From the NCBI GenBank assembly GCA_020723405.1, contig DYIY01000014.1, forward strand, positions 1 through 64,000: a DNA stretch of 64,000 bases, given 5' to 3'. Positions 10,604-31,579 of the stretch are shown piece by piece. How positions within the stretch are numbered: position 1 is the first letter of the stretch; every line of letters starts with the position of its first letter. Below the pieces are notes generated by a model that did no database searches, was not told where the DNA came from, and saw only the letters and a program-made list of their open reading frames with translations. Position numbers and translations under genes: made by a program. Source of the DNA: Thiobacillus denitrificans. Its GTDB lineage: Bacteria; Pseudomonadota; Gammaproteobacteria; Burkholderiales; Thiobacillaceae.

Positions 10604-10620
10604 AGCATTTATCATGCCAC
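10604..10620 (-). promoter_or_regulatory. Sigma-54-type promoter for the PEP-CTERM gene
   Basis: Read on the minus strand the sequence is GTGGCATGATAAATGCT: TGGC, eight bases, TGCT, which is the exact -24/-12 spacing of RpoN promoters. The start codon is about 54 bases downstream. The same layout occurs before three other genes for exported proteins in this window. Confidence 0.7.
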
Positions 10621-10724
10621 GGTAACAAATCACCGAATGCTCCAATAAAACAGAGGCTTACAAATCCATGTGCAACGCATGGGATTGAATCGGGTCCCAA
10701 TGTGTAAAAAATCTCGACGGCCAG

Positions 10725-11486
10725 TCAGTCCGCCAGACTGGCGTATAGGGCCTGGTACTCCCCGGTGAGCTTGTGGGCCGGCAGCAGATGGACCAGGGGT
10801 TTGCAGGCCTCGTGGGACTCCTTCACCTTCACTGAGGCCGACAGGGCCTGGGGCAGTACCGGCAGGCCCTCCGCCAGCAGTTCTGCCACCACCCGTCTGG
10901 GCAGGCTGGAACGGGGCTGGAACTGGTTCACCACGATGCCTTCCACGGCCAGCTCCCGGTTGTGGTCGGCGCGGATCTCCGCCACGTTGTCCAGCAGGGT
11001 GTAGATGGCCTGGTGGGAGAAGCTGTCGCAATCGTAGGGGATCAGGCAGCGGTCGGCGGCGATGAGGGCGGAGCGGGTGAAGAAGTTGAGGGCCGGCGGG
11101 GTGTCGATCCACACGTCGTCGAAGTCCGACTTCAGTTCCTCCAGGGTCTCCTTCAGCTTGTAGATCTTGTAGCGGGATTCCAGCTTGGGCCCCAGCTCTT
11201 CCAGGCTGGGGTGGGAAGGCAGCAGCCACAGGTTGTCGAAGGGGGTGGCGGTGGCGAATTCCACCGCCTTGCGGGGGCGCAGCTTGAAGTTGAGGATCTG
11301 GTCGAACAGGTCGGCCAGGGTGAGTGCCGGCCTGGCCTCGCCCAGCAGGTAATGGCTGGCGTTGCCCTGGAGATCCAGGTCCAGCACCAGGGTACGCCGG
11401 CCCCGGGATGCGCCGACGGCGGCCAGGTTGCAGGTGATGGTGGACTTGCCCACGCCGCCCTTCTGGTTGAACACGACCCGCTTCAT
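10725..11486 (-). CDS. Orphan ParA-family ATPase
   Basis: 253-residue Walker-type ATPase with the deviant Walker A KGGVGKST at residues 9-16, a switch I aspartate in DLDLQGNAS and the Walker B-like DDVWIDTPPA. No parB or centromere-like repeat lies next to it, and the chromosomal parAB pair would normally be near rnpA/gidB, so this is probably a specialised positioning protein (MinD/ParA type, for example for chemoreceptors, polysaccharide machinery or carbon granules). It lies 36 bases before the P-type ATPase gene on the same strand, which may be chance. Confidence 0.85.
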   Translation of the reverse strand: MKRVVFNQKGGVGKSTITCNLAAVGASRGRRTLVLDLDLQGNASHYLLGEARPALTLADLFDQILNFKLRPRKAVEFATATPFDNLWLLPSHPSLEELGPKLESRYKIYKLKETLEELKSDFDDVWIDTPPALNFFTRSALIAADRCLIPYDCDSFSHQAIYTLLDNVAEIRADHNRELAVEGIVVNQFQPRSSLPRRVVAELLAEGLPVLPQALSASVKVKESHEACKPLVHLLPAHKLTGEYQALYASLAD

Positions 11487-11522
11487 GGCTGGCTCCCGGC
11501 CAAAAGATTCAATGGCTTATTG

Positions 11523-14216
11523 TCACCTGTGCGGATGCTGCATTGCAACACGCGCATGGGGCGCCCGGGCGCGCAGGGTCTTCTCGATGCCCACCACGCC
11601 GCCGCTGGCCAGGGCGAAGGCCAGGATGGCCAGCCAGGATTCCAGGCCGATGGGGGCCGTGTGGAACAGGGTGTTGAACAGGGGCAGGTAGGTGAAGGCC
11701 AGTTGCAGGGCCAGCATGAGGCCTGAGCCCAGCCACACCCAGTGGTTGGAGAAGACCCCCACGGACCAGAAGGAACGGGTGAGGGAGCGGCAGTTGAAGA
11801 GATAGACCGTCTCCACCATGACGAACACGTTGGCCGCCACGGTGCGGGCCTCGGCCAGACTGGCGCCCCGCTCCAGTTCCAGTAGGAACAGGCCGAAGGA
11901 ACCCAGCAGCATGAGGACGCCCACCAGGACGATGCGCCAGACCAGCACCCGGTCCAGGAGGGGGGCGGCGGGAGGGCGGGGCGGTCGGCGCATGATGCCC
12001 TTCTCCGGGGGCTCGAAGGCCAGGGTGAGGCCCAGTAGCACGGCAGTGGTCATGTTGATCCAGAGGATCTGCAAGGGGGTGATGGGCAGGGTGGCGCCGG
12101 CCAGGATGGCGGCGACGATGACCAGGCCCTCACCGGCGTTGGTGGGAATGGTCCAGGTGATGAACTTCACCAGGTTGTCGAAGATGCCCCGGCCTTCCTC
12201 CACGGCGGCTTCGATGCTGGCGAAGTTGTCGTCGGTGAGCACCATGGCCGCCGCTTCCTTGGCCACCTCGGTGCCCGTGAGGCCCATGGCGATGCCGATG
12301 TCCGCCTGCCGGAGGGCCGGGGCGTCGTTCACCCCGTCGCCGGTCATGGCCACCACCTGGCCACTCCCTTGCAGGGCTTCCACCAGGCGCAGTTTCTGTT
12401 CCGGCTCGACCCGGGCGAATACGTCCACCTCCGCCGCCGCGGCCGCCAGGCCGGGGCCGTCCAGGCGGGCCAGTTCCCGGCCGGAGAGGGCCCGGGCCCC
12501 GGGGCCGGCGATGCCCAGTTGCCGGGCGATGGCCAGGGCGGTGTCCGGGTGGTCGCCGGTGATCATCTTCACCCGGATGCCGGCGCCGTGGCAGGCCTTC
12601 ACCGCCGCGATGGCCCGGGGCCGGGGCGGGTCCAGCATGCCGGCCAGGCCCAGGAAGGCCAGGCCGGCGCCCAGGCTGTCTTCCTGCAGGTCGCCCCGGG
12701 GCAGCCGGCCCCGGGCCAGGGCCAGCACCCGCATGCCCTGGCGGGCCAGCAGGGCGCCTTCGGCCTCGATGGCGGCGGCGTCCAGGGAAACTTCACGGCC
12801 CCCTTCGTCCAGCATGGCGGAACAGGCGGGCAACAGGCGCTCCAGGGCCCCCTTGGCGTACAGGAGCCGTTCCCCTTCCACCTCGTGGAGGGTGGCCATG
12901 GTCTGGCGCCCCGAGTCGAAGGGCAGTTCGTCCAGGCGGGGAAACACCTGGCGCAGGGTGGCTTGTTCCAGGCCGGCCTTGTGGGCGGCCACCAGCAAGG
13001 CCGCCTCGGTGGGGTCGCCGGTGATTTTCCAATGGCGGCCGTCCCGGGCCAGGCTGGCGTCGTTGCACAGCACCCCGGCCAGCAGGGCTTCCCGCAGGGC
13101 CGGCGCCTGGCCGGCCTCCACCTCCCCCTCGGCGGCGTAGCCCTGGCCGGCCACCCCGTGGCGCCGGCCGCCGGCCCACAGGGCCCGCACGGTCATGGCG
13201 TTTTCGGTGAGGGTGCCGGTCTTGTCGGAACAGATCACCGTGGTGCTACCCAGGGTCTCCACCGCCGGCAGGCGGCGGATGATGGCCCGCCGCCGGGCCA
13301 TGCGCGCCACGCCGATGGCCAGGGTGATGGTCACCGCCGCCGGCAGGCCCTCCGGGATGGCCCCCACGGCCAGGGCCACGGCGGCCATGAACATGGCGTA
13401 GGCCGATTCGCCCCGGGCCACGCCGATGGCAAAGGTGAGGGAGGCAAAGGCCAGGATCACCCACAGCAGCCACTGGGCGAACTGGCCGATCTTGCGGGTG
13501 AGGGGGGTGGAAAGATCCGGCGCGCTGGCGATGAGGTCGGCGATGCGCCCGGTCTCCGTGGCGTCGCCGGTGGCCACCACCAGCCCGTGGCCCTGGCCGG
13601 CGGCCACGTGGGTGCCGGCATAGGCCATGTTGCGCCGGTCGGCCAGGGGGGTGTCGGCGTCCAGCACGGCGGCCGGATGCTTGTCGGCGGCCAGGGATTC
13701 CCCGGTGAGGGCCGCTTCCACCAGGCGCAGTTCCTTGCCCTGGAGCAGGCGCAGGTCCGCCGGCACCTTGTCGCCGGCCGCGAGCCAGACCACGTCGCCG
13801 GGCACCAGGCCGGCGGCGTCCATGCGTCGGCGGGCCCCATCCCGCAGGACGGTCACCTCGCTGGCCACGGCCCGGGCCAGGGCGGCCAGGGCCGATTCCG
13901 CCCTCCCTTCCTGGATGTAGCCCACCAGGGCGTTGATGAGCACCACCCCCAGGATCACCCCGCTGTCCACCCATTCCCCCAGAAAGGCGGTCACCAGGCC
14001 GGCGGCGATGAGCACCAGCACCAGGGGTTGCAGCATCTGCTCCAGGAAGCGCCGCCAGGGCGGCCGGCCGGGGCGTTCCCTGAGGCGGTTGGGGCCGTGG
14101 CGGGCCAGGCGGGCGGCGGCGTCCGACTCGCTCAGGCCCCGGGCGGGGTCCACTTCCAGTTGCCGGGCCGCTTCGTGGCCGTGGAGGCTGTGCCAAAGAA
14201 GGAGCGGGGGCGGCAT
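11523..14216 (-). CDS. Cation-transporting P-type ATPase, Ca2+-type (P2)
   Basis: 897 residues with N-terminal cation-ATPase domain, TGES (171-174) in the actuator, PEGLP (288-292) in membrane helix 4, the phosphorylated Asp in DKTGT (331-335), MTGDGVND in the hinge and a C-terminal six-helix block. PEGLP and full length place it among P2A/PMR1-like Ca2+ or Mn2+ pumps rather than heavy-metal P1B pumps, since it has no CPC motif or metal-binding N domain. The final residues after the last helix are short and basic. Its ion specificity cannot be read from sequence alone. It follows the ABC permease by 32 bases on the same strand. Confidence 0.92.
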   Translation of the reverse strand: MPPPLLLWHSLHGHEAARQLEVDPARGLSESDAAARLARHGPNRLRERPGRPPWRRFLEQMLQPLVLVLIAAGLVTAFLGEWVDSGVILGVVLINALVGYIQEGRAESALAALARAVASEVTVLRDGARRRMDAAGLVPGDVVWLAAGDKVPADLRLLQGKELRLVEAALTGESLAADKHPAAVLDADTPLADRRNMAYAGTHVAAGQGHGLVVATGDATETGRIADLIASAPDLSTPLTRKIGQFAQWLLWVILAFASLTFAIGVARGESAYAMFMAAVALAVGAIPEGLPAAVTITLAIGVARMARRRAIIRRLPAVETLGSTTVICSDKTGTLTENAMTVRALWAGGRRHGVAGQGYAAEGEVEAGQAPALREALLAGVLCNDASLARDGRHWKITGDPTEAALLVAAHKAGLEQATLRQVFPRLDELPFDSGRQTMATLHEVEGERLLYAKGALERLLPACSAMLDEGGREVSLDAAAIEAEGALLARQGMRVLALARGRLPRGDLQEDSLGAGLAFLGLAGMLDPPRPRAIAAVKACHGAGIRVKMITGDHPDTALAIARQLGIAGPGARALSGRELARLDGPGLAAAAAEVDVFARVEPEQKLRLVEALQGSGQVVAMTGDGVNDAPALRQADIGIAMGLTGTEVAKEAAAMVLTDDNFASIEAAVEEGRGIFDNLVKFITWTIPTNAGEGLVIVAAILAGATLPITPLQILWINMTTAVLLGLTLAFEPPEKGIMRRPPRPPAAPLLDRVLVWRIVLVGVLMLLGSFGLFLLELERGASLAEARTVAANVFVMVETVYLFNCRSLTRSFWSVGVFSNHWVWLGSGLMLALQLAFTYLPLFNTLFHTAPIGLESWLAILAFALASGGVVGIEKTLRARAPHARVAMQHPHR

Positions 14217-14248
14217 GGTGGGTCAATCGAGAATGGGCGACACACTCC

Positions 14249-15019
14249 TCAGCGTAGCAGGCGCCGCCGGGTGAGTTTCAGGGCCGCCAGGAAGCCCAGG
14301 CTGCCGAAGGCCACCAGGGCCGTGGCGTGGAGCAGGATCTGCTGGGGCCAGTGGCCCAGGATCAGGGGCCGGGCCAGCTCGATGGCGTGGGTCAGGGGTA
14401 GCCAGGCGGCGATGGCCGCCAGCCAGCCGGGCAGGGCCGTGGGCGGGTAGAACACGCCGCCCAGCAGGATCATGGGGGTGATGGCCAGGGTGAAGTAGTA
14501 GAGGAAGAAGTCGTAGTTGGGCGAGACGGCGTTGATGCTGAGGCCCAGGCCGGCGAAGCAGAAGCCGGTGAGCAGGGCCACCGGCAGCAGGGCCAGGGTC
14601 ATGGCGAAATCCTCGTAGAGGCCCAGGGCCCACACCACCAGCAGGATGGCCACCCCGGACAGCAGGCTCTTGGCCGTGGCCCAGAACAACTCCCCAAGAA
14701 GGATGTCCGGCAGGCCCAGGGGCGTGTTGAGGATGGCATCCCAGGTCTTTTGCACGTGCATGCGCGAGAAGGCCGAGTAGAGGGTCTCGAAGGTGGCGCT
14801 GTTCATGACGCTGTAGGCCAGGGTGCCCGCCGCCAGGAAGTTCAGATAGGGCACCCCGTCCACTGCCGGCAGCAGGCCCCCCAGGCCGTAGCCCAGGCCC
14901 AGCATGTAGAGCATGGGGTCCGCCAGGTTGCCCAGCAGGGAGGGCATGGCCAGCTTCTTCCAGACCAGGAAGTTGCGCCGCCAGACGGGGAACCAGGTAA
15001 GGGAAGTGGAAGCATTCAT
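14249..15019 (-). CDS. ABC-2 type exporter permease (NodJ family)
   Basis: 256-residue inner-membrane protein with six hydrophobic helices and the ABC-2 signature region near GVFYPPTALPGWL (about residues 188-200). NodJ-like permeases pair with NodI-like ATPases in export of lipid-linked or glycan substrates. The start at ATG 15019 gives the usual MNASTSLTWFPVWRRN-type N terminus; an upstream in-frame ATG at 15055 is less likely. The partner ATPase (15796-16707) is separated by about 780 bases holding a small unrelated gene, although these two genes normally abut. Confidence 0.87.
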   Translation of the reverse strand: MNASTSLTWFPVWRRNFLVWKKLAMPSLLGNLADPMLYMLGLGYGLGGLLPAVDGVPYLNFLAAGTLAYSVMNSATFETLYSAFSRMHVQKTWDAILNTPLGLPDILLGELFWATAKSLLSGVAILLVVWALGLYEDFAMTLALLPVALLTGFCFAGLGLSINAVSPNYDFFLYYFTLAITPMILLGGVFYPPTALPGWLAAIAAWLPLTHAIELARPLILGHWPQQILLHATALVAFGSLGFLAALKLTRRRLLR

Positions 15020-15153
15020 GGGGGCACACCCTGTCTTGTTCGCCGGAACATTCACGCTCGAAAGCGACTATGAGCCGGGAATCAAACCATGAGATTGCAT
15101 TCCGTGGTGGATTCAATGAAAGGTACAGGGCTGTGTCCCATCAACTGGAACAA

Positions 15154-15189
15154 CCGGCTGATCAGGCAAGCTGCTTCCTGATCGGCCGG
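15154..15189. terminator. Hairpin downstream of the small Cys protein
   Basis: CCGGCTGATCAGG and CCTGATCGGCCGG pair with one mismatch around ten bases. On the minus strand it comes 23 bases after the stop of the 65-residue gene, so it may end that insert's transcript and separate it from the ABC permease. Confidence 0.5.
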
Positions 15190-15212
15190 TCTGCGCGCTT
15201 CAAGTACTCCAT

Positions 15213-15410
15213 CTAGCCCGTCATGCATTCCGGACACGGGGCCGATTGTGAAGCCCAGTAGAACGCCGCTTCCTGAAGGGGGGCCTCGATACTGCTGCGT
15301 ACGCCGATGTAATGGAGCGTGCTTTTCGCGGGTAGTGACGGGCAGCCGTGCCTGTGAACAACATGGTCGCCGTTCTCGTTTGCAAGTCTTTCCACATAGA
15401 ACTCGTTCAT
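15213..15410 (-). CDS. Small Cys/His protein inserted between ABC exporter genes
   Basis: 65 residues starting at ATG 15410 behind a clear GAGG ribosome site seven bases away. It begins MNEFYVERLANENGDHVVH and ends with a CPEC motif, with another Cys in HGCPSLP. This layout (N-terminal FYV...NGDHEVH-like, central Cys, C-terminal Cys pair) resembles a widespread small bacterial family of unknown function. The DNA is clearly lower in GC than its neighbours and uses A/T-ending codons, which fits recent acquisition. Two Cys sites and two His residues could bind a metal; that is inference. Confidence 0.65.
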   Translation of the reverse strand: MNEFYVERLANENGDHVVHRHGCPSLPAKSTLHYIGVRSSIEAPLQEAAFYWASQSAPCPECMTG

Positions 15411-15795
15411 TTCAATCCGCCTCTCAAAAAAGAAAAAAGTGTTATCAACCAGCATGACCATGGTAGTTGAGTGGTTTTGTCGGTTATCCAGCGTTTGTGC
15501 GATGTTCTTGCACCAAACCCGACAAGAACGCTTGGTTTATCACTCGTCACCTTGGCTGATGGCCATCCGTGCAAGATTTGTTCCAATCTTTGCCGGACAC
15601 CGGCTTGAGCCGATGGGCGCACCCGATGGCGGACTCGGGTGCGATGTGGGCAACAGAGCGGATTTGGCGTGACGAGCTGCGGAGCCATTCAGTTCCGGCC
15701 TGCCCCTTGCGGGCGGGCCTGCCGGATGTGCTGCCGGGATGGTCGAAGCCCTGCGCGGGGTGCGCGCCCGCCCTGGCGTTGCCAGGCCGGGACCG
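15411..15795. other. Gene-free, lower-GC stretch inside the split ABC operon
   Basis: No convincing coding region was seen; short open frames lack ribosome sites and look random. It holds a GTTCTTG...CAAGAAC inverted repeat at 15504-15529 and, near 15695-15725, a GC-rich imperfect hairpin. On the minus strand TTGATAAC at about 15435-15442 may serve as a -10 for the 65-residue gene. Probably foreign DNA that came in with that gene. Confidence 0.5.
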
Positions 15796-16707
15796 TCAGT
15801 CCCGCAGATCCCGCCCCGTCAGTTTGAGGAACACGTCCTCCAGGTTGGCCGGGCGGTGCAGGTAGCGCAGGGCCGGGCGGCCTTCCAGATGGGCCACCAC
15901 CTTGTCCGGGGCATCGGTGTAGCAGAACAGGGTTTCGCCGGCGGTCTCGCAGCGGTGGCACAGGTCGCCGGCACAGGCCTTCCACTCGGCCAGCCCGTCG
16001 CCAAAGACTTCCACCACGTGGGGCTCGATATGGCTGGCGATGAGTTCCCGGGGGCTGCCCCGGGCGATGACCCGGCCCCGGTCCATGACGCTGATGACGT
16101 CGCACAGGCGCTCCGCCTCGTCCATGAAGTGGGTGGTGAGCAGCAGGGTCTTGCCCTGGCCGATGAGCCGGCGCAGGCCCTGCCAGATCAGGTGGCGGGC
16201 TTGCGGGTCCAGGCCGGTGGTGGGTTCGTCCAGGAAGATCAGGTCCGGATCGTTGACCAGGGCCCGGGCCAGGGTGAGGCGCCGTTTCATGCCCCCGGAC
16301 AGGTTGAGGATGGGGGCGTCGGCCTTGCCGGCCAGGCCGGCGAAATCCAGCAGGTCCGGGATGCGCGCCTCGATCTCCCGGCCCGACAGGCCGAAGTAGC
16401 GGCCGTAGGTTTGCAGGTTCTCGCGCACGGTGAAATCCGGGTCCAGGCTGTCCACCTGGGGCACCACGCCCACCTTCTGCCGGCCCAGGCGGGCCCGGGC
16501 GGGCATGGGGTGGCCCAGCAGTTCCACCGTGCCGGCGTCGGCCTGGATCAGGCCCAGGGCCAGGCGCAGGGTGGTGGTCTTGCCGGCGCCGTTGGGGCCC
16601 AGCAAGCCGTGGCAGCGGCCCGGTTCCAGTTCCAGGTCGAAGCCGTCCACCACGGCGCTGCCGCCGTAATGCTTGGTGAGCCCGGCCAGGCGCAGGGGCG
16701 GCCTCAT
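15796..16707 (-). CDS. ABC exporter ATP-binding protein (NodI family)
   Basis: 303 residues. Walker A GPNGAGKTTT is near residue 37, Q-loop VVPQVDSLD near 86, signature LNLSGGMKRRL near 139, and Walker B LIFLDEPTTGLD near 162. The LSGGMKRRL signature and ~300-residue length with a C-terminal extension are typical of NodI/daunorubicin-resistance exporters. The ATG at 16707 overlaps the stop of the hydrolase gene (ATGA), so the two are co-translated. The cognate permease is displaced to 14249-15019. Confidence 0.9.
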   Translation of the reverse strand: MRPPLRLAGLTKHYGGSAVVDGFDLELEPGRCHGLLGPNGAGKTTTLRLALGLIQADAGTVELLGHPMPARARLGRQKVGVVPQVDSLDPDFTVRENLQTYGRYFGLSGREIEARIPDLLDFAGLAGKADAPILNLSGGMKRRLTLARALVNDPDLIFLDEPTTGLDPQARHLIWQGLRRLIGQGKTLLLTTHFMDEAERLCDVISVMDRGRVIARGSPRELIASHIEPHVVEVFGDGLAEWKACAGDLCHRCETAGETLFCYTDAPDKVVAHLEGRPALRYLHRPANLEDVFLKLTGRDLRD

Positions 16708-17306
16708 TGGCACAGGGCCTCCACCCGGGCCTGCAATTCCTTCAGCCGGCCGTGGAAGAAGTGGCCGCCCCCCTCGAACACGATGAGGGGGAGGTGGTGG
16801 GCCTCGGCGTAGGCCTTGGCGGCAGGAAAGGGGATCACCTCGTCCTGTTCCCCGTGGATCACCGTGGCCGGCACGTCGGCCGGATCGAAGGGATACATGG
16901 ACACGGCGGGGCCCACCATGATGAGCTGCCGGGCCGCCAGGCGGCGGGCCACCCGATGCTGCACGTAGGCGCCGAAGGAGAAGCCCAGCAGGGTCCAGGG
17001 CAGGTCGCCGTAGTGGGCGCTCACGGCCCGGGCCACCGCCAGCAGGTCCTCGGTCTCCCCCAGGCCGTGGTCGAAGCTGCCGGCGCTCTCCCCCACCCCG
17101 CGGAAGTTGGGGCGCACCGCCACCAGGCCGCAGTTCAGGGCCGCCCGGGCCAGGGTCCAGGTCACCTTGTTGTCCAGGGTGCCGCCTTTCAGGGGATGGG
17201 GATGGGCCACCAGGGCCAGGCCCCGGGGTTCGCCTTGCGGCTCCTCGATGACCGTCTCGATGGCGCCCACGGGGCCCTTGATGCGCAGTCTGTGTTTGGC
17301 GGCCAT
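16704..17306 (-). CDS. Alpha/beta hydrolase, COG2945-like
   Basis: 200 residues. The oxyanion region is VAHPHPLKGGT (about residues 33-43), the nucleophile elbow is GFSFGA near residue 108, and the likely catalytic acid and base are in HGEQDEVIP and GGGHFFHG. These are hallmarks of a small family of predicted alpha/beta hydrolases often found beside NodI/NodJ exporters in betaproteobacteria. The substrate is unknown. ATG 17306 is at good distance from GGAGAGG; a GTG three codons earlier is the alternative. Confidence 0.85.
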   Translation of the reverse strand: MAAKHRLRIKGPVGAIETVIEEPQGEPRGLALVAHPHPLKGGTLDNKVTWTLARAALNCGLVAVRPNFRGVGESAGSFDHGLGETEDLLAVARAVSAHYGDLPWTLLGFSFGAYVQHRVARRLAARQLIMVGPAVSMYPFDPADVPATVIHGEQDEVIPFPAAKAYAEAHHLPLIVFEGGGHFFHGRLKELQARVEALCQ

Positions 17307-17343
17307 GGGCTTCACCCCTCTCCTGCAAGCGGGAGAAGGACGG

Positions 17344-17667
17344 TCAGATCTTCAGCCGGTCCACGGGCGTGTTGTCCCGCAGGTGGGATTCCAGGATCTC
17401 GTCGATGTCCGCCTCGTCCACGAAGGTGTACCAGACCGCATCGGGATAGACCACGCACACCGGGCCTTCGGCGCAGCGGTCGAAGCAGCCGGCCCGGTTC
17501 ACCCGGCAGTCCCCTTCCTTGCCGTGGAGGCCCAGCTTCTTGGCCTTCTTCTTGGCGTACTCGAACAGGGCCTCGGCGTTGTGCTGGGTGCAGCACTGGG
17601 CGCCGTCCTCCCGTTCGTTGAGGCAGAAGAAGAGATGGTGGCGGAAGTGGCTCTTGGTCTCGTTCAC
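17344..17667 (-). CDS. Thioredoxin-fold 2Fe-2S ferredoxin-like protein
   Basis: 107 residues with the Shethna-type 2Fe-2S pattern: FFCLN near residue 14, a CC pair near 25 and CFDRCAEGPVCVVYP near 62. In this family four of these cysteines hold the cluster in a thioredoxin fold. It is soluble, with no signal peptide. It sits in a same-strand run with the hydrolase and MazG-like genes (gaps of 37 and 23 bases), probably one operon. The redox partner is unknown. Confidence 0.85.
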   Translation of the reverse strand: MNETKSHFRHHLFFCLNEREDGAQCCTQHNAEALFEYAKKKAKKLGLHGKEGDCRVNRAGCFDRCAEGPVCVVYPDAVWYTFVDEADIDEILESHLRDNTPVDRLKI

Positions 17668-17690
17668 GGAATCACGCTCACAGTTCGTGG

Positions 17691-18044
17691 TTACAACTCA
17701 AACGATTTTGCACAGGACCCCCGGGCCTTCTCCACCGGGTACTTGGCGGCGTTGATGGCCAGCTTGTCCTCGGCGGCTTTCAGCAGATCGATGTCCAGGC
17801 AGTTGGACAGGCTCACCAGGTAGATGAGCACGTCGGCCATCTCCTGGCGCACCGCTTCCCGCTTGGCTTCCGGCAGGTTCAGGCTCTGCTCCGGGGTCAG
17901 CCACTGGAAGGGTTCCAGCAGTTCCGCCGCTTCGACGATGAGGGCGGCGGTCAGGTTCTTGGGGTCGTGGTACTGGTGCCAGTCCCGTTCCCGGCCGAAC
18001 TGCTTCACGGCGGCGGCAAGCTGTTCCAGGGTGGTGATGGACAT
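17691..18044 (-). CDS. MazG-like nucleotide pyrophosphohydrolase
   Basis: 117 residues, the usual size of single-domain MazG-like/dCTPase enzymes. The metal-binding helices show EAAELLEPFQW (ExxE) and EMADVLIYL (ExxD), the motif that holds Mg2+ for hydrolysis of non-canonical or excess nucleoside triphosphates. The start at ATG 18044 gives the usual MSITTLEQL N terminus; the open frame continues upstream without support. Confidence 0.85.
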   Translation of the reverse strand: MSITTLEQLAAAVKQFGRERDWHQYHDPKNLTAALIVEAAELLEPFQWLTPEQSLNLPEAKREAVRQEMADVLIYLVSLSNCLDIDLLKAAEDKLAINAAKYPVEKARGSCAKSFEL

Positions 18045-18101
18045 GGCGGTCGATGCGGAAAAGCGACGCGCCAGTTTAGCAGGCGCCATCGGGCGGTGTT
18101 C

Positions 18102-19421
18102 CTACGCCAGGCGGGCGATCTTGGCCTGCGCATCCTCAAGGTGCCGGCGTAAGGCTTCGACACATGCTTGCCACTCGCCCGAGAAACGCTCATCGCCTTC
18201 GAGCCTGGCTATGAAGTTGCCAGCCATTTCTGCCGCCCGATTCCAGATCCTGGCCTCCACGCATGGATGCAGATGGGCCGGCGTGACTTCATTACGCACC
18301 GCGCCACCGGCGCGTGGCATGAAGGTCATGGGCAACATGTCGTAGGCCGGGGCCAGTTCATACGGGCGTCCATGCTCGGACACGAACGACAGGTTGCCGT
18401 GATGCATATCCGTGTTGCCGTTCAATACGCCAAAAGCGTACAGGATCGCTGCCTGTTCCAATGCGGCGTCGACCACCACGTTGGCGCGGACAAGTGCCGC
18501 CGTGATTTCCGGCCAGGGTGACGAGGCCCTCCCGACAAATTCGGCATCCAGCGCGGCCAACGAGTGAATGGCCCTTCGGCCGGACGCGCCAATCCGGTCA
18601 AACCGTTCAACCTCAAGGAAACGCCGACCGGCGATGTCGTGGACGCGGCTCGCCGACGCCCCCATGCCATGATCGCGTAGCGTCTGCAGAGCGTGGTGTT
18701 CTGCCAATAGGAGATCACGCCAGCGTTGCGACACCGGATTGTCGGCGGCGGAAGTCGTCTTGACGATGACATGTCGGTTGTCGGCGTATGCGATGAACTT
18801 GGGTTGCTCACCTCCGGCCGAGGTTCCGGGTAAGTCACCACGCTCGGCGGAATCGGCAAGGGCGGGATATTCGTCTGGTGTGACGGGAACAGGAGCCGGT
18901 GCGTTGATGAACCGGTCACGGGCGATGTCTCCAAGCAGCAGGTTTCCCGGCGCGTCATGACCCACGGCGATCAAGGCCCGCAGGGCGTGGCTGTCTGTCC
19001 ACTCGTTGAGATTCGCCGGCAGGCCCAGATTCGGCCCATGTCGGGAGGCCCATGCCCGGCCGAGGTGACCTGCCGGGCGCATGTCGAGCAGCCACCAGGG
19101 CAGCGAGACACTGTACAAGGTCATGCCGTTGTCCTGGCGCATGACGAACCCATCCTGGCGAACCGGAATCAGCACGCCGCGTCGTTGCAGCGTACCGTCC
19201 ACCGTCACCCGATAGATGGGAATGTCGTCAAAGCCACGGCTCCTGTCGTGAAGCGCGTATTGAATGGATCGGGCAGCACCGATACGGACGATCTCCTCAC
19301 CGGCCCCGTTGATCAGGCGCGACAAGGTCGGCTGGCTGATCCCCAGGGATTCAATGAGTTGGCGTGGCGCGGCCGGCCCGGAAGCCAGGAGAAGCCGCAG
19401 CCGTTCAGGGGGTGAGGACAT
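18102..19421 (-). CDS. yjjJ: HipA-family kinase, YjjJ type
   Basis: 439 residues. An N-terminal winged-helix segment (about residues 5-50, SLGISQPTLSRLI as recognition helix) is fused to a HipA-like Ser/Thr kinase. ATP-loop GGEQPKF is at 203-209, the catalytic loop NGNTDMHHGN at 334-343 and the metal-binding DMLPM at 361-365, all intact. E. coli YjjJ has this layout and length. HipA proteins phosphorylate GltX and induce persistence, and are held in check by HipB; no hipB-like gene lies beside this one, so the fused HTH may give self-regulation. The upstream gap holds AT-rich direct repeats (TATTCGCCTATC, TATTCTCGC) that could be its operator. Confidence 0.88.
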   Translation of the reverse strand: MSSPPERLRLLLASGPAAPRQLIESLGISQPTLSRLINGAGEEIVRIGAARSIQYALHDRSRGFDDIPIYRVTVDGTLQRRGVLIPVRQDGFVMRQDNGMTLYSVSLPWWLLDMRPAGHLGRAWASRHGPNLGLPANLNEWTDSHALRALIAVGHDAPGNLLLGDIARDRFINAPAPVPVTPDEYPALADSAERGDLPGTSAGGEQPKFIAYADNRHVIVKTTSAADNPVSQRWRDLLLAEHHALQTLRDHGMGASASRVHDIAGRRFLEVERFDRIGASGRRAIHSLAALDAEFVGRASSPWPEITAALVRANVVVDAALEQAAILYAFGVLNGNTDMHHGNLSFVSEHGRPYELAPAYDMLPMTFMPRAGGAVRNEVTPAHLHPCVEARIWNRAAEMAGNFIARLEGDERFSGEWQACVEALRRHLEDAQAKIARLA

Positions 19422-19533
19422 GGTGCGAGAATAGATAGGCGAATATATGCATGAATGGATATTACGCCAATCCCACGGGGTTTTCGGCACCCCCGCCGAC
19501 CCGGACGGACCTGGCACCAGGCGCGCAGAGGCG

Positions 19534-21599: not shown

Positions 21600-21748
21600 T
21601 CTGATCTGCGGCGAACCGGGTGTGGTGGGGGATACGGGAATGACAGGGTTTGGCGTATCCCCGTTTGTTTGTCGATTTTTTTTACAACACCGTGTCGTGC
21701 AGGCTGGGACAAGGATGGTCAATACATAAAAAACAATGGGTTGGTGAC

Positions 21749-21765
21749 GTGGCGTGTTTCATGCT
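21749..21765 (+). promoter_or_regulatory. Sigma-54-type promoter for the PEP-CTERM gene
   Basis: GTGGCGTGTTTCATGCT: TGGC, eight bases, TGCT, i.e. correct -24/-12 spacing. The start codon lies 62 bases downstream. The 228-base gap before it is otherwise free of genes. Confidence 0.65.
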
Positions 21766-21827: not shown

Positions 21828-22358
21828 ATGAAAAAGACCCTGCTTGCCGGCCTGTTGCTGGCTTCCGGCGTTGCCAATGCTGATTTCAGCGACGCCTACG
21901 ACGTGTCCAACTGGACCCAGTCCCTCAACGGTGGCGCCATCTTCACCTCCGCCGCTCCCTACCTGGTCACCATGATCAGCAGCGATGACGGTACCGGTCC
22001 CGACTACACCGATTTCACCATCACTGCCGTTCAAGGTGGCATGGTCTCTTTCGATTGGGCGTATCTCAACGGTGATATCGACGGTTCCAGCCTGGATCCT
22101 TTCGGCTATCTGCTGAACGGGGCTTTCGAACAGTTGACCGCGGACAATGATTCTGGCGCCCAGAACGGCTCCGCCTCCTTCATGGTTGCCGCTGGCGACA
22201 ACTTCGGTTTCCGCATCTATTCGACCGATTCCGTCCTGGGGTCCTCCTACGCCACCGTCCGCAATTTCGCTGCTCCCGTCCCCGAGCCCGAGACTTACGC
22301 CATGATGTTGGCCGGCCTGGCTCTTCTGGGTGTTGCCGCCAAGCGCCGCGCCGCCTGA
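21828..22358 (+). CDS. PEP-CTERM sorting domain protein
   Basis: 176 residues. Signal peptide about residues 1-18 (KKTLLAGLLLASGVANA), a beta-rich Ser/Asp-rich domain, then VPEPETYAMMLAGLALLG and KRRAA, the complete exosortase sorting tail. ATG 21828 behind TTGGAGG is chosen over an ATG 159 bases upstream because it begins the signal peptide. Codon use is less G/C-biased than in nearby metabolic genes, as is common for PEP-CTERM substrates. Confidence 0.9.
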   Translation: MKKTLLAGLLLASGVANADFSDAYDVSNWTQSLNGGAIFTSAAPYLVTMISSDDGTGPDYTDFTITAVQGGMVSFDWAYLNGDIDGSSLDPFGYLLNGAFEQLTADNDSGAQNGSASFMVAAGDNFGFRIYSTDSVLGSSYATVRNFAAPVPEPETYAMMLAGLALLGVAAKRRAA

Positions 22359-22396: not shown

Positions 22397-22521
22397 GGTC
22401 GCACCACTCCCAGGCGGTTCGGTACACAGCCAAGCCCATGGCTGGTGATCCCGGGCACGAGCGCCTGAAAGCACCATCGCACCAGGCAGGAGTCCGCAGC
22501 AAAACCGACTTACGGTTCTGC

Positions 22522-22551: not shown

Positions 22552-22559
22552 CCCTGCCT

Positions 22560-22628
22560 ATGAATCTGATTCAGCAGCGCTTTTCTCGATTTACCCCCTT
22601 CCTGGCCACGGCGGCCGGGAGGCGCTGA
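22560..22628 (+). CDS. Possible leader peptide with Phe codons
   Basis: A 22-residue open frame with Phe at positions 8, 11 and 14 (QQRFSRFTPF) ends 29 bases before a perfect rho-independent hairpin, which itself ends about 30 bases before the DAHP synthase gene. The part of the frame at 22601-22614 (CCTGG...GGCGG) is complementary to the left arm of that hairpin (CCGCCAGG) and could form the antiterminator. This is the standard layout of amino-acid attenuation. Against it, no ribosome site precedes the ATG and the Phe codons are not consecutive. Confidence 0.5.
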   Translation: MNLIQQRFSRFTPFLATAAGRR

Positions 22629-22657
22629 TCCACGCAAGTCACATCGAGCCACCCGTG

Positions 22658-22685
22658 AAACCGCCAGGTCCCTGGCGGTTTTTCG
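22658..22685 (+). terminator. Attenuator-like terminator before the DAHP synthase gene
   Basis: AAACCGCCAGG and CCTGGCGGTTT are perfect complements with a two-base centre (effective loop four to six bases) followed by TTT. It lies between the leader ORF and ATG 22717, so full-length transcription of the synthase gene has to pass it. Confidence 0.75.
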
Positions 22686-22716
22686 TTTCAGGGCCGGCAT
22701 CGACCAGGAAACCGAC

Positions 22717-23793: not shown

Positions 23794-23826
23794 GCCCCGC
23801 CGGGAGGCTCCTGGGTTAGAATGCCG

Positions 23827-23927
23827 CGTGGCGGGTCTCCCCGCATGGATACGTCGTCAACCTGGTCAGGTCCGGAAGGAAGCAGCCACAGCGACCGATG
23901 CCAGTGCCGGGGGTCAGGCTCGCCACC
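23827..23927 (+). ncRNA. ffs: 4.5S signal recognition particle RNA
   Basis: The invariant domain IV GGTCAGGTCCGGAAGGAAGC followed by AGCCA lies at 23862-23886. The ends GTGGCGGGTCTCCCC and GGGGTCAGGCTCGCCAC pair to close the rod. The RNA binds Ffh and guides co-translational insertion. Location just upstream of dnaX is usual in betaproteobacteria. Exact ends are estimated from the pairing. Confidence 0.93.
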
Positions 23928-24019
23928 CCGAATTCTGGTGAGGGGTAAGGAGTGAGGAGTGAGGGGAAGACCCTTCGCCTTGCCGCCTCACATCTCGATC
24001 CCAACGCCTCACCGCCTTC

Positions 24020-25798
24020 ATGAGCCATCAGGTTTTAGCCCGCAAATGGCGGCCCCGGCGCTTCGACCAGCTGGTGGGTCAGGAGCACGTGGTGCGCGCC
24101 CTGTCCAACGCCCTGGCCCAGGGCCGGCTGCACCACGCCTACCTGTTCACCGGCACCCGGGGGGTGGGCAAGACCACCCTGGCGCGCATCCTGGCCAAGT
24201 GCCTGAACTGCCAGGGGGGCGTGGGCGTCACCGCCGAGCCCTGCGGTGAATGTGCCGCCTGCCGGGAGATCGACGCCGGCCGCTTCGTGGACCTCATCGA
24301 GATCGACGCCGCTTCGTATACCGGCATCGACAACATGCGGGAGGTCATCGAGAACGCCCAGTACGCCCCCACGGCGGGCCGCTACAAGGTGTACATCATC
24401 GATGAGGTGCACCAGCTCTCCAAGCACGCCTTCAACGCTATGCTGAAGACCCTGGAGGAGCCGCCGGGCCACGTGATCTTCATCCTGGCCACCACCGATC
24501 CCCAGAAGGTGCCGGTGACGGTGCTGTCCCGCTGCCTCCAGTTCAACCTGAAACAGATGCCCCCGGGCCACGTGGCCGGCCACCTGCGCAAGGTTCTGGA
24601 AGCCGAGCAGGTGCCCTTCGAAGCCGGTGCCCTGAACCTGCTGGCCCGGGCCGCCGCCGGCAGCATGCGCGACGCCCTGTCCCTCACCGACCAGGCCATC
24701 GCCTACGGCAGCGGCCAGGTGCGGGAGGAGGAGACCCGGGCCATGCTGGGGGTCATCGACCAGGCCTACCTGCTGCCCCTGCTGGAGGCCCTGGCGGCCA
24801 AGGACGGCCCCCGGCTCATGGCCGAGGCCGGCGAGCTGGCCGCCCGGGGGTTTTCCTTCGACGCCGCCCTCCAGGACCTGGCCGGCCTGTTGCACCAGAT
24901 CGCCCTGGCCCAGGGGGTGCCGGAAGCCGTGGCCGAGGACGCCCCGGAACGGGACCGGCTGTTCGAACTGGGCACCCTGCTGGACCCGGAAACCGTGCAG
25001 CTCTACTACCAGATCGCCACCCTGGGGCGGCGGGACCTGGAATGGGCTCCGGACGAATACGCCGGGTTCACCATGACCCTGCTGCGCATGCTGGCCTTCG
25101 CCCCGGGGGAGCCCTCCGGGCCGGGCGGCGGTAGCCGGGCCGGCGAGGCTGCGGGCCAACCTGCGGGCGCCAGCGGACGTTTCCAGGGGGCCCCTGCGGC
25201 CCGGCCCAGCCCTGTTGCCCAGGCGGCCAATGAGGCGCGGATCGGGCCGATGCCGGGGACCGCGTCGGTAGCTGCGGCCAGCTATCCCCCCCACCCCAAC
25301 CCCTCCCCCACGGGGGGGGAGGGGCTTTTGGGAACCCTCCCCCCTCGTGCGGGAGGGCAGGGTGGGGGGGAGAACCACGCCAATGCCAACGCCGAAACGA
25401 TGGCCCCCGCCCAACCCCTGGACTGGCGTGCCCTGGCCGAAAGCCTGCCCGGCGTGGTGCGGCAACTGGCCATGCACTGCGAACTGGCCGGCCGGGATGA
25501 ACGGGGCCTCCACCTGCGCCTGCCGGAAAGCCAGAAGCCCCTGCTGGCCGGCTTCGGCGAGAAACTCAAGGAAGCCCTGGCCGAACGCCTGGGCCGCTTG
25601 CCGGTGCACATCGACATGGTGGCCGATACCCTGGCCTCCCCCGCCGCCGCCCGGGCCCGGGAGCAGGCGGTGCGCCAGGACGAGGCGTCCGCCGCCATCC
25701 ACGACGACCCATTCATCCAGACCCTGGTGCGCGAGTGCGACGCCAGCGTGTCCAACATCCGCCCCCTGGCCCCCCGCCGGACGGGCACCGACAACTGA
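24020..25798 (+). CDS. dnaX: DNA polymerase III subunits gamma/tau
   Basis: 592 residues. Walker [10 protein letters not shown] near 45-53, four Zn cysteines (CLNC...CGEC.AC near 64-79), Walker [10 protein letters not shown] and sensor/SRC arginine finger region TVLSRCLQF are all present, so domains I-III are complete. From about residue 370 a linker rich in Gly/Pro/Ala leads to the tau C-terminal domain. This linker contains an in-frame DNA repeat at 25286-25371 (about residues 423-451). dnaX, ybaB and recR follow each other as in most Gram-negative genomes. Whether a shorter gamma form is produced by frameshifting was not determined. Confidence 0.95.
25286..25371. repeat. G/C-rich repeat element inside dnaX, in frame
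   Basis: C-runs and G-runs alternate as an imperfect double hairpin (CCCCCCACCCC... and ...GGGTGGGGGG as outer arms, CCCTCCCCC/GGGGGGGAGGG inside). Translated it gives [13 protein letters not shown], a peptide that recurs when this type of intergenic element lands in a gene. It adds about 29 residues without breaking the frame. Although also G/C-rich, its sequence is different from the five elements at 16-6158. Confidence 0.8.
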
Positions 25799-25811
25799 GC
25801 GAGGCGAACCC

Positions 25812-26138
25812 ATGATCAAAGGCGGTATCGGCAACCTGATGAAGCAGGCCCAGCAGATGCAGGAAAACATGCAGAAGCTCCAGGCCAAGATCGCGGAGAT
25901 GGAAGTGGAAGGCGCCGCTGGCGCCGGCCTGGTCAAGGTGGTGATGACCGGCAAGCACGACGTGAAGCGCATCACCATCGACCCTTCCCTGCTGGCCGAC
26001 GACAAGGACATGCTGGAAGACCTGGTGGCCGCCGCCGTCAACGACGCCGTGCGCAAGGTGGAGACCCTGGTGCAGGACAAAATGTCCGCCGCCACCGCCG
26101 GCCTGCCCCTGCCCCCGGGGTTCAAACTGCCGTTTTGA
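25812..26138 (+). CDS. ybaB: YbaB/EbfC nucleoid-associated protein
   Basis: 108 residues starting [17 protein letters not shown], with the long N-terminal helix and central sheet of the YbaB/EbfC family and a C-terminal [10 protein letters not shown]. YbaB dimers bind DNA; the dnaX-ybaB-recR order is conserved. Confidence 0.95.
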
Positions 26139-26146
26139 GAGGCAGC

Positions 26147-26239
26147 GGGTAGTCGGTAGTTGGTAGTCTGTAGCTTTATTACTGCGCGCCTTTGGCGCGG
26201 AAGCACAGCTACCGACTACCAACTACCGACTACCAACTA
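26147..26239. repeat. GTAGT/ACTAC inverted-repeat element between ybaB and recR
   Basis: Repeated GTAGTCGGTAGTTGGTAGT on the left and its complement ACTACCAACTACCGACTACC on the right flank a small GCGCGCCTTTGGCGCG hairpin. It separates two genes that are usually adjacent. This type of element looks like a non-autonomous insertion. Confidence 0.75.
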
Positions 26240-26243
26240 AACG

Positions 26244-26837
26244 ATGCTCCCCGCCTCCCTCGGCGCCCTCATCGACTCCCTGCGCGTGCTGCCCGGGGTG
26301 GGGCCCAAGTCTGCCGCGCGCATGGCCTATCACCTGCTGCAACGGGACCGCAACGGCGCCGCCCGGCTGGCCATGGCCCTCTCCGGGGCATTGGAGAAGC
26401 TGCGCCATTGCCAGCGCTGCAACAATTTCAGCGAGACCGATGTCTGCGAGACCTGCGCCAGCCCCCGGCGGGACCCGCGCCAGCTCTGCGTGGTGGAAAT
26501 GCCCGCCGACCTGAACCGGCTGGAGGAGACCCAGGCCTACAAGGGCCTCTACTTCGTGCTCATGGGGCGGCTCTCCCCCCTGGACGGCATCGGCCCCCGG
26601 GAGATCGGACTGGAAAGGCTCATCGAGCGGGCCCGGGATGGTGAGACGGAGGAAGTGATCCTGGCCACCAACTTCACCGCCGAGGGGGAAGCCACCGCCC
26701 ACTACGCCGGCGAGCTGCTCAAGGCCCGGGGCCTGAAGGTGACCCGCATCGCCCGGGGCCTGCCCGCCGGCGGCGAGCTGGAACACGTGGACGGCATGAC
26801 CATCGCCCAGGCCCTGCTGGACCGGCGGGCCGTCTGA
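26244..26837 (+). CDS. recR: Recombination protein RecR
   Basis: 197 residues. Helix-hairpin-helix [13 protein letters not shown] (about residues 16-28), C4 zinc finger [16 protein letters not shown] (about 57-72), then a Toprim domain with [13 protein letters not shown]. RecR forms a ring that with RecO and RecF loads RecA at gaps. Length is standard. Confidence 0.95.
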
Positions 26838-26850
26838 CCACAAGGTGACC

Positions 26851-29761
<2,911 letters not shown>

Positions 29762-29770
29762 GGCCGCACC

Positions 29771-30140
29771 TCACGCCATGGAATGCAGGCCGATCATGTT
29801 GCCCTCGGTGTCAGTCACCAGGGCGATGAAGCCATGCTGGCCGATGGAAAATTTCTCCTTGAACACCTGACCGCCATTGTCCCGGACCCGGGCGGCCTCC
29901 ACGGCTCAATCGGCACAGGCGAAATAGACCAGGGTGCCGCCCCCCCGAAGCGCAATCTTCCATACGCACCAGGCCCCCTGCCGCGCCGGGCGCGTTCATC
30001 TCCATGGGAAAGGCCCGCCTCTCCACCCCCGGGCTCTCCAGGAGCTGGAGTTCAAGCGCGAAGACCCGCTCATAGAAGACCCGGGCCCGGGCCGTGTCCT
30101 GCAGGTGGATCTCGAACCAGACCACCGGATTGTTCCGCAA
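29771..30140 (-). pseudogene. VOC (glyoxalase-like) family gene, frameshifted and with a stop
   Basis: The first part reads MRNNPVVWFEIHLQDTARA as in VOC proteins, up to about residue 68 (RMEDCASGG). A shift at a run of seven G (29940-29946 on the plus strand) then puts the true continuation, LVYFACAD, into another frame. That frame has a TGA at 29906-29908 and resumes with VFKEKFSIGQHGFIAL and DTEGNMIGLHSMA, a typical VOC end. Two independent lesions make a real pseudogene more likely than a single sequencing error, though the homopolymer is a classic error site. Confidence 0.8.
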
Positions 30141-30273
30141 GGTTGCCTCCTGTTGGGCGCTTGATGGGTGAGTCCCGGAGCGCGGGTTGGCAGGGGATCA
30201 TGTCGATTTGTCGAAAATATTTACGCCCGACCCTGGCCCGCGCGCAGATCATCAATATAACCTATTGATTTAC

Positions 30274-30290
30274 TTGGCTATTGCCGTGCA
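30274..30290 (+). promoter_or_regulatory. Sigma-54-type promoter for the PEP-CTERM gene
   Basis: TTGGCTATTGCCGTGCA: TGGC, eight bases, TGCA. The start codon follows 50 bases downstream. The surrounding 200 bases (30141-30340) are AT-rich for this genome and hold no gene. Confidence 0.65.
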
Positions 30291-30340
30291 GGCGCGGTAA
30301 TTGCTTGATTTTCAAGTGCAAACCTTGAGAGGAGGATGTC

Positions 30341-31039
30341 ATGGACATGCGCGCCGCCAAGCTTTTGCCCGCCGTCGTCGCCTGCTGCTTCGCCATGGGG
30401 CATGCCCGGGCGGCGACCATCGAATGGTCCCTGGGCCCGAGCTTCAACGGGGCCACCGGCTACGAGGGCATCCTCACCAACGGAACCCTGGTGGAAGCGG
30501 TTGATTTGGTCGGTGCCACTGGCGGCTCCATGACTGTGGATCCCCTTGGCATCAACCTGACCTTTTCGATGGTCAATTCGCCCTTCTTCAACAGCAACTG
30601 GGCTTCCGCCGGGTTTGGCGGCAGTACCGACAGTGCCTGGGGCAACATCCTCAACACCTTCGAATGGCATCAGGGAAGCGACGTGGCCGGAACCGGCTTC
30701 CTGGGCGGACTGGTGGCCGGGCACACCTACCAGGTGCAGTTCTTCGCAGCCCGTTCCGACTGCTGCGGGACCAGGACTCTGTCCTTCTCCAACGGCATCG
30801 ACGTGGCGACGGTGACCATCGAATACGATGATTACGTGAGCGTGGTGGGCACCTTCGTTGCCGATGCCAGCAGCCAGACCATCAGCTTCGACGACAGCAC
30901 CAACAACCCCTTGCTCAACGCCTACGTGCTGCGCGACATCAGCCCGGTGCCGGAGCCGCAAACCTGGACGATGTTGCTGGCAGGCCTGCTCACGGTTGCC
31001 GGCGTGGCCGCTTGGCGGCGGCCGGCCCGGGCCTGGTGA
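30341..31039 (+). CDS. PEP-CTERM sorting domain protein
   Basis: 232 residues, starting behind a strong GAGAGGAGG site. Signal peptide about residues 1-25 (KLLPAVVACCFAMGHARA). The body resembles a beta-sandwich, carbohydrate-binding-like module with a CC pair in ARSDCCGTR. The tail has VPEPQTWTMLLAGLLTVAG and WRRPARAW, the exosortase signal. It converges with the next secreted protein gene, leaving only six bases between the stops. Confidence 0.88.
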   Translation: MDMRAAKLLPAVVACCFAMGHARAATIEWSLGPSFNGATGYEGILTNGTLVEAVDLVGATGGSMTVDPLGINLTFSMVNSPFFNSNWASAGFGGSTDSAWGNILNTFEWHQGSDVAGTGFLGGLVAGHTYQVQFFAARSDCCGTRTLSFSNGIDVATVTIEYDDYVSVVGTFVADASSQTISFDDSTNNPLLNAYVLRDISPVPEPQTWTMLLAGLLTVAGVAAWRRPARAW

Positions 31040-31045
31040 AGGGCG

Positions 31046-31492
31046 TCAACCCCGGGTGCATACCAGGGTGTAGTGGGTTTCGTGGTTGCCGCCCACCGAG
31101 GTGGGGGTGACCCCGCTGGAGATATAGGTGGTATGGCTTCCTGAGGTGGATTCCGGGTTGCCGGTGCCGCGCAGGGTGAGCCGGGTGTTGAAGCCGATGG
31201 CCACGAACACCCCCACGTCGTTGAAATAGTCGATGTTCACCACCGCCTTGCCGGCCTCTTTGGTGAGGATGGCGGAGAAGACCTTGGTGCGGGTGGTGGT
31301 GGAGAAATCATCTTCATAGGCCACACCCTGCTGGACCACGAAATCCTTGATGTACTCCTCCACCAGGGCATCGCCGTACACGTATTCCACGACCACGTTG
31401 CAATTGGCTGAAACGGGGCCGGCAGCCTGGACGGCGGATGGGGGATTCAGGGTTACGAGGAAGAGGGCAAGCAGCGTGGTCAGTCTGGTCAT
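31046..31492 (-). CDS. Secreted protein of unknown function
   Basis: 148 residues starting at ATG 31492 behind GGAGAATCC. The signal peptide is about residues 1-23 (LTTLLALFLVTLNPPSAVQA). The mature part is beta-rich with two Cys residues (SANCNVVV and LVCTRG near the C terminus) that may form a disulfide, and no PEP-CTERM tail. No family is recognised. A near-consensus sigma-54 element lies 71 bases upstream, as for the PEP-CTERM genes, which suggests joint control. Confidence 0.75.
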   Translation of the reverse strand: MTRLTTLLALFLVTLNPPSAVQAAGPVSANCNVVVEYVYGDALVEEYIKDFVVQQGVAYEDDFSTTTRTKVFSAILTKEAGKAVVNIDYFNDVGVFVAIGFNTRLTLRGTGNPESTSGSHTTYISSGVTPTSVGGNHETHYTLVCTRG

Positions 31493-31562
31493 GATGGATT
31501 CTCCAGAAAGGGATGGGCATCCTGGCTGACTTGGGGCGGCCGCCAGGGGAGCCTGGAAAGTA

Positions 31563-31579
31563 CGCAATCCGCGTGCCAG
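31563..31579 (-). promoter_or_regulatory. Near-consensus sigma-54 promoter
   Basis: On the minus strand CTGGCACGCGGATTGCG. It matches the RpoN consensus TGGCACG-N4-TTGC at every defined core position. It drives toward the secreted protein gene at 31492. Confidence 0.75.

Follow-up and report, generated by a model that had tools for sequence, protein, structure and literature searches.

The locus and its four sigma-54-like elements

The window that we analyzed is a stretch of 64,000 nucleotides of Thiobacillus denitrificans DNA, in which a sequence-only reading had linked four genes for exported proteins through TGGC-N8-TGC elements of exact sigma-54 spacing, 50 to 71 bases before a start codon. 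The four elements are found at 10605-10619 (-), 21750-21764 (+), 30275-30289 (+), and 31564-31578 (-). By coordinates, the ATGs behind them are at 10550 (-), 21828 (+), 30341 (+), and 31492 (-), at distances of 54, 63, 51, and 71 nt. The products are also as described, with three passing the Pfam PEP-CTERM cut-off and a fourth, without the tail, having no Pfam match. As for the exact spacing, the fixed -24/-12 geometry stands, but it is a general property of sigma-54 sites, and the distances to the start codons vary. The three PEP-CTERM genes and their upstream features are as follows.

9885-10550, minus strand: PEP-CTERM gene 1 (221 aa; Pfam PF07589, 22.2 bits, cut-off 20.7)
10604-10620, minus strand: sigma-54 -24/-12 site of gene 1, GTGGCATGATAAATGCT
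10703-10718, minus strand: predicted PrsR box of gene 1, GTCGAGATTTTTTACA (exact match; spacer 84)
21671-21686, plus strand: predicted PrsR box of gene 2, GTCGATTTTTTTTACA (spacer 64)
21731-21743, plus strand: IHF-like site of gene 2, AAACAATGGGTTG (8/9; ends 7 nt before GGC, a position favored in the GTDB set)
21749-21765, plus strand: sigma-54 site of gene 2, GTGGCGTGTTTCATGCT
21828-22358, plus strand: PEP-CTERM gene 2 (176 aa), FxDxF family (NCBIfam NF038126, 57.5 bits, cut-off 50)
30210-30225, plus strand: predicted PrsR box of gene 3, GTCGAAAATATTTACG (spacer 65 to the revised promoter)
30258-30270, plus strand: IHF-like site of gene 3, TAACCTATTGATT (9/9; its end lies 20 nt ahead of GGC in the revised promoter)
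30289-30305, plus strand: revised sigma-54 site of gene 3, CAGGCGCGGTAATTGCT (replaces 30274-30290 of the earlier reading)
30341-31039, plus strand: PEP-CTERM gene 3 (232 aa; alternative start 30347; Pfam PF07589, 26.4 bits)

The bare TGGC-N8-TGC motif occurs 59 times in the 64-kb window, vs 24 expected from shuffles. Single matches are therefore little proof, and so weak a motif needed to be tested against other features. Plain counting was rejected as a criterion because the motif is too common, as was a genome search for TTTAC followed after a gap by TGGC-N8-TGC, which is too loose (23 matches vs 13 for the reversed control). The discriminating feature is GTCGA-N5-TTTACA, the predicted PrsR box, which corresponds to motif 1 of Haft 2006 (PMC1569441). 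In the accessible text of that study, motif 1 is a 17-nt box ending in TTTACA, and motif 2 is the sigma-54 site. Upstream of genes 10550, 21828, and 30341, motif 1 matches at 11, 11, and 10 of 11 positions, and motif 2 (-24 GG/-12 GC), sought 32 to 92 nt after motif 1, is found with spacers of 84, 64, and 65 to the GG.

For gene 3, a better sigma-54 site lies 15 nt downstream of the one originally proposed. The latter, TTGGCTATTGCCGTGCA, gives a spacer of 50, a TGCA ending, and an IHF-like site 5 nt off, whereas CAGGCGCGGTAATTGCT gives a spacer of 65, a TGCT ending, and an IHF-like match that is perfect and ends 20 nt ahead of GGC. The sigma-54 weights used here score the two candidates nearly equally (11.6 and 11.2). 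We prefer CAGGCGCGGTAATTGCT because spacer, ending, and IHF-like site all agree.

Box and promoter mark a subset of PEP-CTERM genes

The genome-wide comparison rests on 35 PEP-CTERM genes, i.e., 42 matches to TIGR02595 (E up to 10) minus 7 that were dropped (one frame without a start, four unlike PEP-CTERM proteins, and two short frames); three of the dropped 7 score above the TIGR02595 cut-off and three of the kept 35 below it. The 105 control genes were taken from 184 kb with a crude open-frame caller. Scored sigma-54 sites precede 15/35 PEP-CTERM genes and 8/105 controls (p=8e-6), so their frequencies are not equal. A box matching at least 9 of 11 positions is found before 15/35 and 1/105, respectively; two of these 15 matches, C3:42175 (an inverted repeat) and C29:87053, look false and are without a fitting promoter. 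Box and scored sigma-54 site occur together before 11/35 PEP-CTERM genes and none of the 105 controls (p=6e-8). This combination, hereafter the module, thus accounts for only 11 of the 35 PEP-CTERM genes of the genome, the rest being unexplained by it. Among the rest are the PEP-CTERM genes on C13 and C42, where the sigma-54 sites are strong and no box reaches 9 matching positions.

Searched exactly, GTCGA-N5-TTTAC occurs 12 times in the 4.15-Mb genome vs 4 for its reversed control. Eight of the 12 sites lie before seven PEP-CTERM genes (the three window genes, plus five sites before four other genes), one precedes an exported-type gene that has a sigma-54 site and no tail, and three are without a fitting promoter. 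When one mismatch is allowed and the final A required, there are 37 matches vs 15 reversed.

At L034, a single PEP-CTERM gene is preceded by a pair of exact boxes, at G000:C5:10098 and 10210, with 112 bp between them. At L032 (G000:C29:113755-116147), a single strand encodes four PEP-CTERM tails. Two of these belong to short frames that lack a fitting start, perhaps as broken genes. The window itself has a fourth PEP-CTERM gene, at 42163-42846 (-), which the earlier reading overlooked. It has no scoring sigma-54 site and a Pfam Toxin_10 match of 14.1 bits, under the cut-off of 28.6. A perfect inverted repeat, GTGTAAATTGTTTACAC, lies 57-73 nt before its ATG and is perhaps the operator of another regulator; by count it matches 9/11 as a box, yet it has GTGTA instead of GTCGA.

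The module co-occurs with PrsR

Genes for PrsK, PrsR, and PrsT are adjacent on C35 (797, 742, and 741 bits, all above the NCBIfam cut-offs) and adjoin an XrtA-type glycosyltransferase gene. This PrsR is the only one in the genome above the family cut-off. Among 117 genomes of the family, box plus promoter gives 112 matches in 59 genomes, while the reversed pattern gives none in all 117. PrsR is found in 85/117 at E up to 1e-150, a strict cut-off at which fragments in draft genomes may be missed. The module is present in 56/85 genomes with PrsR vs 3/32 without (p=2e-8); conversely, 29/85 PrsR genomes have no exact match to it. The three genomes with a match and without PrsR are G015, G034, and G075, two of which are nearly complete. 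The last base of the promoter is T in 112 family matches vs A, C, or G in 23. From the co-occurrence of module and PrsR we infer that PrsR binds the predicted box GTCGA-N5-TTTACA.

Control of PEP-CTERM genes by RpoN and PrsR is prior art (PMC1569441; pepA in Aquincola, PMC9850573). In its accessible text, Haft 2006 reports the two-motif arrangement at 99/167 proteobacterial PEP-CTERM genes, more than 65% of PEP-CTERM genes in single-gene operons, a spacer with a mean of 62.8 and an SD of 10.6, and co-occurrence with PrsK, PrsR, and PrsT (PMC1569441). The TTTACA-ending box, the sigma-54 motif, and the regulator set are common to that study and ours. In the case of pepA of Aquincola tertiaricarbonis RN12, the part of the report available to us describes a mapped -24/-12 start with TGGCAC and CTGCTT motifs, high transcription that depends on rpoN1, and a predicted enhancer upstream (PMC9850573). 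The likeness to our promoters lies in the sigma-54 motifs and the predicted upstream enhancer, and would extend to the RpoN1 dependence; the difference is that one promoter was studied there, experimentally, with no spacing rule in the accessible text and with PrsK-PrsR control only probable (PMC9850573). The earlier proposal of RpoN/PrsR control of the three PEP-CTERM window genes is thus well supported by sequence, each having a box at a phased distance in a genome that encodes PrsR, PrsK, and PrsT. Judged in this way, the three genes are probably ordinary members of the known regulon.

Box and promoter are separated by quantized distances

A GTDB scan covering box-promoter gaps of 47-77 bp gave at least 118 stretches. 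Matches followed by a PEP-CTERM gene were recognized by regular expression, and the first 80 loci comprise 81 matches among those listed. All 43 PEP-CTERM-followed spacers among the matches listed for these loci fall at 51-54 (7), 61-65 (26), or 74-77 bp (10), classes that were drawn from these loci themselves. Among the matches listed for 38 held-out loci (39 matches, 22 PEP-CTERM-followed), 22/22 fall in the same classes (p=5e-9). The fit is poorer for listed matches without a recognized PEP-CTERM gene, with 25/38 in the classes, and 13/17 in the held-out loci. Some of the 38 are probably chance matches, e.g., those in Lachnospiraceae and Paenibacillus, and five have PEP-CTERM-variant tails recognized by eye, three of these listed matches lying in the classes and two, with a spacer of 66, outside.

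The family genomes, in which spacers of 36-96 bp were covered, extend this series. There, 110/112 spacers lie in clusters at 52.8, 63.7, 75.5, 86.2, and 95.0 bp, with a slope of 11.06 bp per cluster and outliers at 37 and 42; the class near 86 is added by these genomes, beyond the 47-77 range of the GTDB scan. The best spacer periods are 11.1-11.4 bp, with R of 0.71-0.89. A uniform null was rejected, the observed R never being reached in 5000 simulations, and a single-peak null was likewise rejected (0/5000). With one row per genus and spacer (49 rows), R is still 0.61 vs a simulation maximum of 0.52. Distances from sigma-54 site or box to ATG show little periodicity (R 0.08-0.20, n=41, vs 0.87). 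The GTDB classes do not cover the spacers of 78 (C29) and 119 (C12:298504) in our own genome. On this sequence evidence, the box-promoter spacing is quantized.

Shared descent or the search pattern might in principle have produced such a series: the same exact pattern was used to find all sets, the family genomes are kin, and the GTDB set consists of the matches listed, out of at least 118 stretches. We regard this explanation as hardly credible. The 43 GTDB spacer sequences are unrelated, the best equal-length pair among the matches listed being 47% identical, and when 81 GTDB modules among the matches listed were compared with 30 family modules, none was common to both or more than 80% identical. 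The held-out loci, with every listed PEP-CTERM spacer in a class defined beforehand on other loci, also argue against it. As a weak control, 12 presumed chance matches among those listed, picked by eye after their spacers were known and including one (L224) from a Desulfuromonadales MAG, are scattered over 49-73 bp, with 3/12 in the classes and 0/12 with an IHF-like site.

IHF-like sites at fixed positions next to many promoters

We took WATCAANNNNTTR as the presumed IHF consensus, together with an assumed IHF bend geometry, and counted as IHF-like any match at 8 or more of 9 consensus positions. When spacers were aligned by their promoters, TTGAT-type sites ended 19-21 nt before GGC, and those in the opposite orientation 6-8 nt before it. 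The two windows were fixed using the first GTDB set, before the other two sets served to test them. Among the matches listed in the discovery set, 22/48 promoters (the 43 PEP-CTERM-followed ones plus the five by-eye variants) have an IHF-like site there, vs a shuffle mean of 0.6 and a maximum of 3 in 500 runs; sliding the windows by -6 to +15 leaves 0-2 matches. The held-out GTDB matches listed give 14/22 (shuffle mean 0.35, maximum 3). In the family, where 29 of the 112 matches were used with our own genome left out, the site is found at 10/29 promoters, in the reverse orientation only (shuffle mean 0.3, maximum 3; slid windows 0-3).

In the window, IHF-like sites lie at favored positions between box and promoter at genes 21828 (8/9) and 30341 (9/9), and gene 10550 has none at these positions. 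In the whole genome, 4 of 12 inspected box-linked promoters have such a site at a favored position. The C42 promoter has a perfect IHF-like match, but at another position.

A proposed geometric model for PrsR-box promoters

The box, the promoter, their quantized spacing, the fixed-position IHF-like site, and the co-occurrence with PrsR are all observed in the genomes, and they lead us to propose the following model. Phosphorylated PrsR would bind GTCGA-N5-TTTACA while sigma-54 polymerase waits at a GGC-N8-TGCT promoter. Separated by whole helical turns (about 53, 64, 75, or 86 bp), box and promoter would face the same side of the DNA. At many promoters, IHF bound at its fixed place beside the promoter would bend the short linker, so that the AAA+ ring of PrsR could touch sigma-54. 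Binding of PrsR and IHF, loop, and output are the inferred part of this model. We consider it highly probable that the three PEP-CTERM genes of the window are PrsK/PrsR-sigma-54 targets with a phased box-promoter arrangement and often IHF, and that the fourth gene is under another activator. The wider statement, that in bacteria with PrsR the PEP-CTERM promoters form a rigid nucleoprotein module on one helix face, at about 53, 64, 75, 86, or 95 bp and often with IHF at one fixed place in either orientation, appears probable to us.

Helix-face effects are known at other sigma-54 enhancers. Flocs and exopolysaccharide are associated with the PEP-CTERM/exosortase system, whose switch was deduced for the most part from co-occurrence. 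Synthetic bacterial enhancers are the topic of another paper, as far as its accessible part goes (PMC4740811). IHF commonly bends the DNA between enhancer and sigma-54 promoter, according to the available text of two reports (PMC7057263, PMC7962754), and our model resembles these IHF-assisted promoters in having an enhancer, an IHF bend, and an AAA+ activator contacting sigma-54. The usual separation given in one of them is 100-140 bp (PMC7962754), vs mostly 50-95 bp here, phased, with the IHF-like site near the promoter. The accessible part of the same paper, a Geobacter study of IHF genes, lists GSU1943, a PEP-motif exosortase substrate, in an RNA-Seq table (PMC7962754). Where Haft 2006 describes the spacing, in the text available, by its mean, SD, and range, helical classes and an IHF site are given only here (PMC1569441). 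Among the open-licence papers listed, mostly at the level of titles and abstracts, we found neither phased PrsR spacing nor IHF sites at PEP-CTERM promoters.

What is new is therefore the geometry, spacing and IHF-like site together, which the sequences strongly support. If true, the arrangement would amount to a spacing code used by one activator family, legible from genomes alone, that also picks out targets without a PEP-CTERM tail. The geometric model makes a prediction for a reporter: a 5-bp insertion would break the arrangement and an 11-bp insertion would rescue it. It also sharpens target prediction, with one promoter corrected, one gene removed, and tail-less candidates added.

The fourth gene has a strong sigma-54 site outside the module

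The gene removed is the fourth gene of the window, which had been put forward as a new member of the regulon. Its features are as follows.

31046-31492, minus strand: fourth gene, an orphan of 148 aa (signal-peptide-like start by eye; no tail)
31563-31579, minus strand: sigma-54 site of the fourth gene, CTGGCACGCGGATTGCG (no PrsR box upstream)
31634-31657, unstranded: inverted repeat GGGGGCAAA-N6-TTTGCCCCC (speculatively, a possible site of another activator)

Up to E 10, Pfam gives no match to the product, and its best NCBIfam score is 16 of 130 bits, far under the cut-off. Relatives are absent from the 116 other family genomes, the gene being found in 1/117, its own. Motif 2 is present (score 15.4). 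The site had been called near-perfect, and rightly so: it is one of only 14 matches to TGGCACG-N4-TTGC in the genome, vs none for the reversed control. For seven of the other 13, the gene that follows was compared with Pfam; the products are a flagellar rod protein, a flagellin, a nitrogenase-type oxidoreductase, a pyridine-nucleotide oxidoreductase, an NMT1-like binding protein, an iron-sulphur assembly protein, and OsmC. Sigma-54 classically drives flagellar and nitrogen genes, so this class of sites is probably functional, and the fourth gene's promoter is probably a genuine sigma-54 site of the general kind.

That all four genes belong to one PrsR regulon, as initially proposed, would fit the strength of this site, the secreted type of the product, and the adjoining PEP-CTERM gene. 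We nevertheless consider it very unlikely. Upstream of the fourth gene, motif 1 matches at best 6/11 on the sense strand, which is background level, and 8/11 on the other strand; the promoter ends in TTGCG, whereas box-linked promoters mostly end in TGCT rather than TGCA, TGCC, or TGCG (112 vs 23); no IHF-like site was found at it; and the gene has no relative in which conservation could speak for it. A second sigma-54 regulon offers another possibility. It would be defined by a GGGGCA/TGCCCC dyad common to the fourth gene, a boxless PEP-CTERM gene on C22, and a histidine-kinase gene on C36, with the C36 NtrC-type regulator as activator. The exact dyad GGGGCANNTGCCCC occurs at only four places in the genome (L297-L300, on G000:C7, C22, C29, and C36). 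Two of these are followed by strong sigma-54 sites, at 73 and 61 bp, and the dyad at 61 bp precedes a gene with a HisKA domain, itself ahead of an NtrC-type match (C36). The fourth gene's inverted repeat, with arms of 9 bp, has the same half-sites and matches 10/12 in the best register, but with a different half-site spacing. The other two dyads are without a strong sigma-54 site, and the dyad was defined post hoc from these same promoters, hence is not independent. With dyad plus promoter found in 1/117 family genomes, its own, we rejected it as a conserved second regulon and consider this reading rather unlikely for the fourth gene. The more general reading is preferred: having a strong general sigma-54 promoter without the module, the fourth gene is likely sigma-54 dependent via an activator other than PrsR.

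Tail-less genes with box and promoter

A few sites before other genes are mentioned by Haft 2006, in its accessible text (PMC1569441), and two such genes can be named here. On C12 (L134), a box at 3323-3338 (-) and a sigma-54 site, with a spacer of 85, precede a gene whose product, of 231 aa, has what by eye is a twin-arginine-like start and no PEP-CTERM tail. This protein has no Pfam or NCBIfam family and no similarity to the 26 non-PEP proteins among the matches listed in the first GTDB set. In a member of the Halieaceae (L218), the module, matched at 6171-6265 (-) with a spacer of 64, lies before the gene for a short tail-less twin-arginine-like protein, which is not similar to the C12 protein. 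On C2 (L128), a box with one mismatch and a sigma-54 site, with a spacer of 63, precede the gene at 812-2758 (-) for a 648-aa HDOD-histidine kinase. A receiver-domain match lies just downstream, and the PrsR regulon may have a regulatory branch here.
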